From: Elusimicrobiaceae bacterium
Lineage (GTDB): Bacteria; Elusimicrobiota; Elusimicrobia; Elusimicrobiales; Elusimicrobiaceae
Length of the DNA stretch: 37,063 bases
Assembly: GCA_017520185.1 (NCBI GenBank)
Contig: JAFXGO010000018.1
Coordinates: forward strand, 1 to 37,063
Reading direction: 5' to 3'
In this document: in pieces, positions 14,511 to 17,456 of the stretch
How positions within the stretch are numbered: position 1 is the first letter of the stretch
Layout: each line of letters begins with the position of its first letter
Notes under the pieces: generated by a model
Told to the model about the DNA's origin: nothing
Database searches by the model: none
Seen by the model: only the letters and a program-made list of their open reading frames with translations
Translations under genes and position numbers: made by a program

Positions 14511-15251
14511 TTACTCATTGGATATATTTCTCTGCTGTTGCAAGCGGCTCCAATTAATCCAGCCTATAACAGCCATAATCAGGTAAATGGTTCTTTTGGT
14601 CAGATAAACGGCATCGAAATGAGCAATATACATACCCACCGATATAATATCGGTAATAATCCACCAAATATACTGCTCCCGATAGCGCAGCAAACCCAGT
14701 ATCGTAGCCACAATGCCAATCGTCAGCGTAAAGGCATCAAACCAGGGCACTTCTCCACCCATTTTGACCAATACTTCATGGCAGCCGTATCCGATCAGCA
14801 CTACTGCCACGCTGATAGCCACATTTTGCCACATTTTCAATTTTTTTGCTTTGGTTTTACGGGAAATTTGGCTATCTCTGTGCTTGGCCCAAAAATACCA
14901 AGACATAATATTCATGGGAATATAAAAAAATATTTCCAAAGCAGCCGTTCCCCAAATTTTCCAATATACCAAATAAATGGCATAAACGATGGTATTAACC
15001 AAAGCAAAAATAAAGGTACTGATGTTAGCCTTAGCACTAAAGAAAATACAGATTACGCCACAAACGGCACTGATAAAATTTACCACCGTCAACCACGCGG
15101 GGTTTCCGTCGGCAGAGCCGGAGGTAAAACCTTTTACCATCGCCCAGCCGGCTATCAGCACCATCACAGCACCCATCAGGTATTCATACCACGTCAAATC
15201 CTGAAAACTTTTTTTAATATTTTCTAATTTTAAATCACTGCAAACAGTCAT
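14511..15251 (-). CDS. pnuC: PnuC-family vitamin transporter
   Basis: The 246-residue integral membrane protein has about seven TM segments and the PnuC signature in its second half (QYIWWIITDIISVGMYI, then the terminal IYLIMAVIGWINW). Family members import nicotinamide riboside by facilitated diffusion. Relatives carry thiamine or riboflavin, so the substrate is not certain. No nadR, thiamine riboswitch or FMN riboswitch is seen nearby. AGAGGA lies 7 nt before the ATG. It is 10 nt downstream of lysC and is followed by a strong terminator, so it is the last gene of the lysine operon. Its link to lysine synthesis is not obvious. Confidence 0.9.
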   Translation of the reverse strand: MTVCSDLKLENIKKSFQDLTWYEYLMGAVMVLIAGWAMVKGFTSGSADGNPAWLTVVNFISAVCGVICIFFSAKANISTFIFALVNTIVYAIYLVYWKIWGTAALEIFFYIPMNIMSWYFWAKHRDSQISRKTKAKKLKMWQNVAISVAVVLIGYGCHEVLVKMGGEVPWFDAFTLTIGIVATILGLLRYREQYIWWIITDIISVGMYIAHFDAVYLTKRTIYLIMAVIGWINWSRLQQQRNISNE

Positions 15252-15261
15252 TTTTTTCCTC

Positions 15262-15990
15262 TTATTTAATCACCGTACCCGTTTGACCGGTTTGATAGTG
15301 TACAATGCGGATTTCAATTCCTTTTTCTTTGGCTAAACGTACAGCATCCGGATGCAAAACATTGGCTCCGTTTAAAGCCAGTTTATACATTTCATCAAAA
15401 TCCAATATTTCATACTTTTGCGCCTGCAGGTCTTTGTTGGGATCGGCGCTATACACACCATCTACGTCTTTGACCATTTCCACATGGTCAGCCCCCAATT
15501 GGCTGGCCAAAAATACGGCCGAAACATCCGAACCGCCACGTTTGAGTGTGGTGATTTCTTTATTTTCGCCAATTCCCTGAAACCCCGCCACAATAGGCAC
15601 ATGTCCTTCTTGCAATTCTTTGGGCAAACGGTCCCCTTTCAAAGACAAAATATCCGCCCCCGTATGCGCACAAGTGGTAATTAACCCTATTTGGCTGCCG
15701 GTCAAAGAAACAGACGGCACTCCTATTTCTCTAAGAGCAATAGACAACAAAGCCACACTCACGCGCTCGCCGGTGGTAATCAGCATGTCCAACTCGCGTT
15801 TATCAGGATTGCGGCTAATACTGTAAGCGTGGTCCAAAAGAACATCTGTCAAATTGCCATTGGCAGAAGCCACGACAACGGGCAAGTATCCTTCTTGATA
15901 ACGGGACTTAATTAAATCTGCCGCCATTAAAAGTTTTTGTTTATTGGCCAGTGTATTACCGCCAAATTTCATGATGCAAATTTTTCTCAT
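15262..15990 (-). CDS. lysC: Aspartate kinase lacking ACT domains
   Basis: Aspartokinase phosphorylates aspartate in the first step of lysine, threonine and methionine synthesis. The kinase domain is complete: KFGGN at the start, VVVASANGNLTD, TTGERVS, GFQGIGENKEITTLKRGGSD and VDGVYSADP. The protein ends at about 242 residues, immediately after the kinase fold (TGTVIK), so the usual ~150-residue C-terminal ACT regulatory region is missing. No ACT-like ORF follows; pnuC begins 10 nt later. Lysine feedback inhibition in the usual way is therefore unlikely. The third-codon ATG (15990) is preferred because AGGAA lies 6 nt upstream. The stop of lysA is 9 nt upstream. Confidence 0.92.
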   Translation of the reverse strand: MRKICIMKFGGNTLANKQKLLMAADLIKSRYQEGYLPVVVASANGNLTDVLLDHAYSISRNPDKRELDMLITTGERVSVALLSIALREIGVPSVSLTGSQIGLITTCAHTGADILSLKGDRLPKELQEGHVPIVAGFQGIGENKEITTLKRGGSDVSAVFLASQLGADHVEMVKDVDGVYSADPNKDLQAQKYEILDFDEMYKLALNGANVLHPDAVRLAKEKGIEIRIVHYQTGQTGTVIK

Positions 15991-15999
15991 AATCATTTC

Positions 16000-17250
16000 C
16001 TATAACCACGGAGCCAATGTATATTGCTCCAACATTTCCTCATAAGAAGGGCGTTTACGCACAACGGCAAACTCGCTTCCTTTTACTAATACTTCCGGCA
16101 CCAACGGGCGGAAATTATAGGCAGAGGCCATTGAAGCACCATACGCTCCGGCACACATTATAGCAAGTAGGCCTCCCTCCTGAATAGGCTCGATAATACG
16201 CGCATGGGCAAAAACGTCTCCGGATTCACAGATAGGGCCCACAATATCAGCAATGATAGGGGGTATGCCTTTTTTATGAACGGGCAAAATGGTATGCCAG
16301 GCATCGTATAAGGCAGGGCGAATCAAATCATTCATACCGGCATCTACTACGATAAAGTTCTTTTCTCCGTTTGTTTTGGTATAGGTCACTTCCGTCACCA
16401 AAATACCGGCATTACCCACAATGGAACGGCCCGGCTCAATGATAATATGTTTATTTAAATGGCCCAACGTTTCATGAATCACTTGCGCATAGGCCTGACA
16501 AGTAGGGGGCAACTCTACGTTGTAATTAATACCCATACCGCCGCCCAAGTCAATATTTTGTATTTCAATTCCTTCAGCCGCCAATTCCTGCACCATAGAA
16601 GCAATTTTGGTAAAAGCCAGGCGGAACGGCTCTACATCTAACAATTGAGATCCGATGTGCACCGCAATACCGGCCACTTCGATTCCGTCCATTTTCGCCG
16701 CTTTGCGATAGAGAGCCAACCCTTCTTCCCACGCTACGCCGAATTTATTTTCTTTTTTGCCGGTGGTAATTTTGACGTGGGTCAAAGCATCTACGTCAGG
16801 ATTAATGCGTAAAGCAATACGGGCTTTTTTACCCTGCGCCAAGGCCACTTGATTGACGCTTTCCAACTCTACGGCAGATTCCACATTAATTTGCAAAATA
16901 TCCAAGCGCACTGCTTCTTCCAACTCTTTACGCGTTTTACCCACGCCGGAAAAAACTATTTTATTGGCCGCAATACCGGCGCGCAAAGCAACGTACATCT
17001 CCCCTACGGACACCACATCGGCTCCGCTGCCCATCTGTGCCAAAGAGGCCACTACACTTAAATTGGGGTTGGCTTTGACAGAATAACAAATCGTAGCATT
17101 CAGGCCCGATAAAGCCTCATGATAGTCTTGATAGTTTTGGGTAATTTTATTGCAAGAATAACAATAAAAGGGTGTTCCCACCTCTTGAGCAATTTTGGCA
17201 ATTTGAGTATCTTCTGCAAACAATTCTGCATTTTTATATTGAAAACTCAT
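16000..17250 (-). CDS. lysA: Diaminopimelate decarboxylase
   Basis: LysA makes lysine from meso-diaminopimelate using PLP. The PLP lysine is K59 in CYSVKANPN. Other family marks are HIGSQ, the Gly loop DLGGGMGINY, EPGRSIVGNAG and the subunit-bridging CESGD with GAYGASMAS. Length is 416 residues from ATG 17250, chosen because AAGGAG lies 6 nt upstream; a start twelve codons earlier is unsupported. It is first in an operon with lysC and pnuC. The upstream region carries a lysine-rich short ORF and a terminator that look like an attenuator. Confidence 0.97.
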   Translation of the reverse strand: MSFQYKNAELFAEDTQIAKIAQEVGTPFYCYSCNKITQNYQDYHEALSGLNATICYSVKANPNLSVVASLAQMGSGADVVSVGEMYVALRAGIAANKIVFSGVGKTRKELEEAVRLDILQINVESAVELESVNQVALAQGKKARIALRINPDVDALTHVKITTGKKENKFGVAWEEGLALYRKAAKMDGIEVAGIAVHIGSQLLDVEPFRLAFTKIASMVQELAAEGIEIQNIDLGGGMGINYNVELPPTCQAYAQVIHETLGHLNKHIIIEPGRSIVGNAGILVTEVTYTKTNGEKNFIVVDAGMNDLIRPALYDAWHTILPVHKKGIPPIIADIVGPICESGDVFAHARIIEPIQEGGLLAIMCAGAYGASMASAYNFRPLVPEVLVKGSEFAVVRKRPSYEEMLEQYTLAPWL

Positions 17251-17279
17251 ACAATTCTCCTTGTCTTTATAAAAAATTT

Positions 17280-17303
17280 CCCCCACTTACAATTAAGCGG
17301 GGG
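17280..17303 (-). terminator. Candidate lysine-attenuator terminator in the lysA leader
   Basis: As minus-strand RNA this forms a 10-bp stem (CCCCCGCUUA/UAAGUGGGGG) with an AUUG loop, followed by AAAUUUUUU. One pair is G-U in the minus-strand RNA but would be an A-C mismatch on the plus strand, so the structure fits minus-strand transcription. It lies 28 nt after the short leader ORF and 20 nt before the lysA Shine-Dalgarno. Nucleotides 17285-17300 can instead pair with 17335-17350 at the end of the leader ORF (14 of 16 positions), giving an antiterminator. Confidence 0.7.
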
Positions 17304-17330
17304 TTAAAACTAATTCAAATCAAACATTCT

Positions 17331-17420
17331 TTATCCGCGAAATTGTAAGCAAGCAGGCAAGGCACGTTTTTTGGCCTTGTTGTGTTTGCTGACGCGTTTG
17401 ATAAAGAAATACTGTTTCAT
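17331..17420 (-). CDS. Putative lysine-rich leader peptide of the lysA operon
   Basis: A 29-codon ORF starts at ATG 17420 and ends in TAA. It has six lysines (positions 2, 8, 12, 15, 17, 18), including adjacent AAA AAA codons at 17-18 and three more just before. No Shine-Dalgarno is present; a TATACT -10 ends 6 nt before the ATG. The last seven codons overlap the segment (17335-17350) that can pair with the terminator hairpin. A ribosome held at codons 17-18 would cover up to about codon 23 and leave this segment free, while one reaching the stop would cover it. This is the arrangement of a classical amino-acid attenuator. The alternative is a genuine small basic protein; no family is recognised. 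Confidence 0.6.
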   Translation of the reverse strand: MKQYFFIKRVSKHNKAKKRALPACLQFRG

Positions 17421-17426
17421 ACTTAG

Positions 17427-17456
17427 AGTATAATAAAATCCCTTACCGCTTGGCAA
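17427..17456 (-). promoter_or_regulatory. Promoter of the lysA leader/operon
   Basis: The minus strand reads TTGCCA (17451-17456), 18 nt, TATACT (17427-17432), six nucleotides, then the ATG of the leader ORF. Both hexamers are 5/6 to consensus. Transcription should start at or next to the ATG. Confidence 0.75.

Follow-up and report, generated by a model that had tools for sequence, protein, structure and literature searches.

In textbooks, regulation of lysine genes at the RNA level means the lysine riboswitch (L-box, RF00168), an mRNA leader element whose aptamer senses free lysine. The element described here also occupies the leader of a lysine gene: it precedes lysA on the minus strand of a 37,063-nucleotide (nt) contig from an Elusimicrobiaceae bacterium (JAFXGO010000018.1; this whole stretch is called the window below), but the L-box is absent, and its parts resemble those of a ribosome-mediated transcription attenuator. 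Attenuators of this kind have been listed for the trp, his, leu, thr, ilv and pheA operons, with no lysine operon among them (PMC1183508). The enterobacterial trp, his, thr, leu, ilv and pheA systems share with the lysA leader a short open reading frame (ORF) with cognate codons, hairpins 1:2, 2:3 and 3:4, and a geometry in which a stalled ribosome leaves segment 2 exposed and one at the stop codon covers it (PMC1183508); here, however, the signal would be lysine, the ORF probably lies at the 5' end of the RNA, the phylum is a different one and no sequence relation is detectable.

Two other systems come close in the placement of the start codon. In Sinorhizobium meliloti, the AUG of the trpL leader peptide is the 5' end of the transcript, and the peptide is translated according to ribosome profiling (PMC7298713, PMC10117765); trpL (rnTrpL) shares with the lysA leader an AUG at the 5' end ahead of an attenuator terminator, but has Trp codons, precedes trpE and belongs to the Alphaproteobacteria. 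Leaderless Cys-rich upstream ORFs have been proposed in mycobacteria, likewise enriched in the amino acid of the downstream operon, but the amino acid is cysteine and the parts of that paper drawn on here describe no terminator/antiterminator pair (PMC4633059). RNA elements found in a survey of Actinobacteria cover Trp, Cys and the branched-chain amino acids but not Lys (PMC1262725). We found no report of a lysine-specific ribosome-mediated attenuator in the open-access literature, which makes "unreported" a provisional term. The main comparative attenuator survey, by Vitreschak et al. in 2004, is not known to contain a lysine case. What is provisionally new in the predicted element is thus lysine as the signal, a leader ORF that is probably leaderless, and the phylum, for which we found no such system reported.

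The lysA leader and its alternative hairpins

The leader between the promoter and lysA contains the following parts.

17427..17456, minus strand: sigma-70-like promoter, with -35 TTGCCA (17456-17451), an 18-nt spacer and -10 TATACT (17432-17427); 10/12 matches
17331..17420, minus strand: leader-peptide ORF, probably leaderless, 29 codons, MKQYFFIKRVSKHNKAKKRALPACLQFRG, stop TAA at 17333-17331
17367..17372, minus strand: control codons Lys17-Lys18 (AAA AAA), inside the loop of hairpin 1:2
17348..17390, minus strand: competing (1:2, protector) hairpin; segment 1 is 17390-17373, and the 3' arm (17365-17348) overlaps the start of segment 2
17335..17350, minus strand: segment 2 (5' strand of the antiterminator), GCTTACAATTTCGCGG, pairing with 17300-17285
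17280..17303, minus strand: terminator hairpin (3:4), 10 pairs, an intrinsic terminator between the leader ORF and lysA
17271..17279, minus strand: T tract AAATTTTTT 3' of the terminator
17257..17262, minus strand: lysA ribosome-binding site AAGGAG, kept in relatives

The original prediction had named the promoter, the 29-codon ORF with six Lys codons (AAA AAA at 17-18 among them), the terminator and the lysA ribosome-binding site, all of which are present with every coordinate correct; the six Lys codons are numbers 2, 8, 12, 15, 17 and 18. What it overlooked is the competing hairpin at 17390-17348, which appears in the minimum-free-energy fold of the window leader and makes the set complete: 1:2 protector, 2:3 antiterminator and 3:4 terminator, all mutually exclusive. 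The proposed complementarity between 17350-17335 and 17300-17285 was reproduced with its 14 paired positions, one of them G-U; the partner of segment 2 comprises the terminator 5' arm, the loop and part of the 3' arm, and the duplex is better than in 500 of 500 shuffles, none of which equalled it. Folding, suggested as a check at the time, places the 151-nt leader at -44.4 kcal/mol, against -29.0 ± 3.8 in shuffles (z -4.1; 0/200 as low).

We consider it very probable that this element is a ribosome-mediated transcription attenuator of the trp/his type with lysine, i.e., the supply of lysyl-tRNA, as its signal. The parts, their pairing, spacing and conservation are read from sequence, and from these we infer translation, the start site, stalling and the response to lysine. 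Transcription would start at or beside the A of the leader AUG, giving a nascent RNA without a 5' untranslated region (UTR), and a ribosome would begin on the first codon of that RNA. When lysine is short, the ribosome would stall at Lys 17-18 (or at 12/15), covering segment 1 and leaving segment 2 free to pair with the emerging 5' arm and loop of the terminator, so that the terminator would be blocked and lysA-lysC transcribed. When lysine is plentiful, the ribosome would reach the stop codon, which lies 2-9 nt beyond segment 2, and cover this segment, so that the terminator would form. If the leader went untranslated, hairpin 1:2 would tie up the beginning of segment 2, again allowing the terminator to form.

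The alternative pairings were followed through a first comparison set of 14 lysA loci, the window and 13 relatives, and the whole arrangement is present in 14/14. On a 13-row alignment, 95.9% of the antiterminator cells are paired, compared to 31-42% after shifting the partner by 1-3 columns; the 1:2 and terminator cells are jointly paired at 92%, compared to 34-47% after the same shift. Terminator cells alone are 100% paired in the 13 relatives, and the 1:2 hairpin is conserved with base-pair changes. Alignment column 144 pairs both with column 75 (antiterminator) and with column 139 (terminator), and these 3 columns switch jointly between A-A-U and G-G-C, for which at least 2 switches are needed on the lysA tree.

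Some lineages have replaced the sequence and kept the pairing, as in the G005/G082 group (GCTTGTGCTTT/AAAGTACAAGC) and, with different stems, in G085 and G089. In another genus, G115 and G116 (L065/L066) have an unrelated GGGC...GCCC hairpin with Lys-Lys codons again in the loop. In both genera tested, the segment-terminator duplexes of lysA-linked loci outdo almost every shuffle. Judged at the level of sequence, lineages that replace the letters and keep the pairing are stronger evidence than column covariation.

Lysine codons, spacing and the start of the leader transcript

Five Lys positions in the 28 distinct main-type ORFs are occupied by AAA or AAG only, and never by a codon for another amino acid; the AAA/AAG counts are 20/8 at K8, 28/0 at K12, 26/2 at K15, 19/9 at K17 and 21/7 at K18. 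Over 31 ORFs, 167 Lys codons lie in frame, compared to 55 and 76 in the other two frames. Between the last Lys codon and segment 2 there are 15 nt in nearly all relatives and 16 nt in the window, and the stop codon follows 2-9 nt beyond segment 2, a spacing that holds in 26/27 loci listed, the exception (L079) having been misassigned by the search pattern. These distances fit stalling, in that a ribosome held at the Lys codons would expose segment 2 while one at the stop codon would cover it; the placement of Lys 17-18 pointed out in the original prediction is kept in relatives. As far as the alignments go, conservation is split, falling on the RNA where RNA should matter and on codons where codons should matter.

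Several observations weigh against the attenuator model. The window has one inserted base after the Lys codons, by which the C-terminal reading frame is shifted; segment 2 and the stop just behind it are retained despite this frameshift. The Lys codons sit in an A-rich loop, so that Lys richness could be partly a matter of base composition; both the AAA/AAG pattern and the bias towards one frame, however, speak against this. Antiterminator pairs changed on both sides (1 pair) are not above column shuffles, as few columns vary inside the main clade. Finally, terminator and antiterminator differ little in stability, and the minimum-energy "stalled" fold is still the terminator in about half of the loci; the model thus needs co-transcriptional folding, as trp does.

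The deep, conserved secondary structure of the leader might also suggest a lysine-binding riboswitch or a T-box that contains an ORF by chance, a reading to which we give scarcely any credence. A scan of the leader against all 4227 Rfam families returned none above threshold, and no T-box or L-box match even at E up to 5. The L-box covariance model (RF00168) matched neither the window nor any of 90/90 family genomes, while four control genomes were positive, which bears out the absence of an L-box noted from the window sequence. Moreover, the only conserved structures are the three mutually exclusive attenuation hairpins, and the in-frame AAA/AAG pattern is at odds with an ORF present by chance.

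Upstream of the ORF, the -10 hexamer lies 6 nt (32/35) or 7 nt (3/35) before the leader ATG in lysA-linked loci, a spacing that is kept over otherwise divergent upstream sequence and that would make transcription begin at the A of the AUG or right beside it. No Shine-Dalgarno sequence was seen before the leader ORF in the relatives examined, whereas lysA has a conserved one. The leader ORF is therefore probably leaderless, its start being deduced from the -10 spacing, in agreement with what the window sequence had first suggested. The same attenuation logic could operate with a leader ORF that has a 5' UTR and is transcribed from a promoter further upstream, the 6-nt spacing being incidental, and a second, weaker promoter-like match does occur in the window at 17492-17464. 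We regard this as improbable: the -10 keeps its distance of 6 nt (three times 7) in 35/35 lysA-linked loci whose upstream sequence otherwise diverges, the leader lacks the Shine-Dalgarno sequence that lysA has, and an identical 6-nt spacing recurs ahead of the Met and Thr leaders described below.

Distribution of the element and its counterpart in Elusimicrobium minutum

A covariance model was built from 13 of the 14 loci with G005 held out, and G005 was recovered at 88 bits. Taking matches of 37 bits or less as background, the model found the element in 34/66 genomes of the genus at 59-170 bits. A lysA search of the same genomes showed that all 34 have lysA; in the 35th lysA genome (G083), the gene is cut at a contig end and the upstream region is unassembled. 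The element is absent from 31/31 genus genomes without lysA, and it was found neither in 80 mostly alphaproteobacterial lysA loci among the matches listed nor in 14 order-level relatives, both of which served as negatives for the model. A match at 48.6 bits in G114, a genome without lysA, was rejected, because a terminator-like hairpin is all it shares with the element and a Lys-rich leader is missing. As a separate observation, G075, which also has a lysA copy, carries an orphan leader (L064; G075:C23:12279-12417; peptide MVSLFFVKRVSKQSKSKKRFCVPACGN) whose -10 is degraded and which is not followed by lysA. This leader no longer shows complementarity to its terminator (139/500 shuffles as good) and may be a relic; its assembly has 6% contamination.

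The element was not recognised by the covariance model in Elusimicrobium minutum (G102), a cultured species, but was found there by reading upstream of lysA. Of the 21 codons of this leader, MLKNAKKTDSVKKGSKKTLGA, 7 encode Lys; its AUG is at position 768950 of the 1,643,562-bp chromosome, and TATTAT lies 6 nt ahead of it. The segment TGTAATTTTGCGA lies just behind the stop, and the terminator contains TCGTAAAATTACA. The longest pairing run between segment and terminator is 13, reached by 0/2000 shuffles. The plan is thus the same, while sequence similarity to the genus element is unrecognisable. Overall, the Lys-rich ORF, its Lys codons and the complementary segment, which an alignment of lysA upstream regions had been proposed to look for, are all kept in relatives; together with the promoter-to-AUG and Lys-to-segment distances, they are found in 34 genomes of the genus and in two more genera. 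Their conservation across three genera supports the lysine attenuation first proposed from the window.

The distribution bears on the possibility that the terminator belongs to a small-protein or small RNA (sRNA) gene, with lysA expressed by constitutive read-through and the ORF encoding a Lys-rich functional small protein. Terminated leaders can indeed act in trans, as do rnTrpL/peTrpL of S. meliloti (PMC7298713), and one orphan leader without lysA exists (L064). However, the antiterminator complementarity and its joint changes would then have no role, presence of the element tracks lysA almost exactly, and the peptide sequence is unconserved between genera, all of which makes this explanation very unlikely.

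The same peptide comparison speaks to nascent-peptide arrest. TnaC and SpeFL sense tryptophan and ornithine, respectively, in the ribosome tunnel, and the lysA leader peptide could in principle sense free lysine or another ligand there, the more so as the stretch KR.SKQNKSKK is kept as protein within the genus. We nevertheless see little chance of this, since the window reads the C-terminal half in a different frame and the sequence of this half varies elsewhere, the peptides of E. minutum and the other genus are unrelated and have only Lys in common, and the positions of the stop and of the Lys codons match starvation stalling. We therefore retain attenuation by ribosome stalling at the Lys codons as the preferred reading. 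The presence of the element in a cultured species, E. minutum, makes the predicted lysine attenuator directly testable.

A further Lys-rich ORF, MNTNIKPFAKQLKDKSSIKRLDFLRS, was seen in the first 570 bases of G113:C109 (L096), with a terminator behind it to which a segment is complementary; the gene downstream is a 674-amino-acid (aa) open frame that begins as lysA, i.e., an unusual lysA. The ATG of the Lys-rich ORF is far from the promoter; the ORF is not leaderless and was not counted, and it is possibly part of an independent lysine attenuator.

Downstream genes and the wider aspartate family

The genes behind the leader in the window are the following.

16000..17250, minus strand: lysA, diaminopimelate decarboxylase, 416 aa, ATG at 17250; NCBIfam TIGR01048, 488 bits, above cut-off
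15262..15996, minus strand: lysC, aspartate kinase, 244 aa; Pfam match to AA_kinase only, a kinase domain without ACT (feedback) domains
14511..15251, minus strand: pnuC, nicotinamide riboside transporter, third gene; TIGR01528

LysC is the sole aspartate kinase found in the window genome, the only other match being a distant kinase (30% identity), and its length is similar in the relatives inspected (L062, L072, L073 and L080). Given the lack of ACT domains and of any other aspartate kinase found, enzyme-level feedback at the aspartokinase step is probably missing from this genome. In the relatives inspected, pnuC does not adjoin lysC. Both hom and a true metY were looked for in the window's genus and neither was found, so that the aspartate pathway there seems to serve lysine and diaminopimelate only. 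As regards the origin of lysA, LysA of the family is 48-55% identical to alphaproteobacterial LysA (L099-L178, among the matches listed), compared to 38-46% identity to LysA of its own order (L017-L030); these figures, which are pairwise identities rather than a cross-phylum tree, suggest that the family acquired LysA horizontally.

The 1.6 Mb E. minutum genome was scanned for leaderless short ORFs ahead of terminators and genes, and two further leaders matched to their downstream gene were found, one for Met and one for Thr.

G102:C1, leader ATG at 306417, minus strand: Met-rich leader L194, MQKNLSNKAMMMSMSAMMSMMRMHSFAFRINF, with 9 Met after the start, before the O-acetylhomoserine sulfhydrylase gene (metY)
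G102:C1, leader ATG at 951066, minus strand: Thr-rich leader L226, MKLIRTASTTVTTTTTMDKLLAVFVLN, with 8 Thr, before the homoserine dehydrogenase gene (hom)

The Met leader recurs before metY in G115, G101 and G103, with TATAAT exactly 6 nt from the ATG, and partly in G112. In these leaders (L194, L268, L269, L270 and L271), TATAAT or TATTAT lies 6 nt upstream of the ATG, and one segment is complementary to the terminator that follows; they represent a methionine-specific attenuator candidate in as many as five genomes. L226, a candidate threonine attenuator, also has TATAAT 6 nt before its ATG and was seen in the E. minutum genome only. In G116 (C92; L066/L260/L267), lysA and then metY and hom lie in one direction behind the Lys element, so that the lysine switch there may govern methionine genes too.

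Taken over the family, we think it likely that Elusimicrobiaceae control the lysine, the methionine and, in E. minutum, the threonine branch of the aspartate family by leaderless-leader-peptide attenuators built to one plan: a promoter, an AUG at the 5' end, cognate codons and alternative hairpins. If so, these would include the first lysine-specific and methionine-specific ribosome-mediated attenuators known to us, and an AUG at nucleotide 1 would be a design feature that ties the ribosome to the polymerase from the start. A lysine attenuator in Elusimicrobiota would widen both the signal range and the taxonomic range of attenuation and would make leaderless initiation central to a regulatory switch. 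Since LysC has lost its feedback domains in this lineage, such control of transcription may be the main brake.
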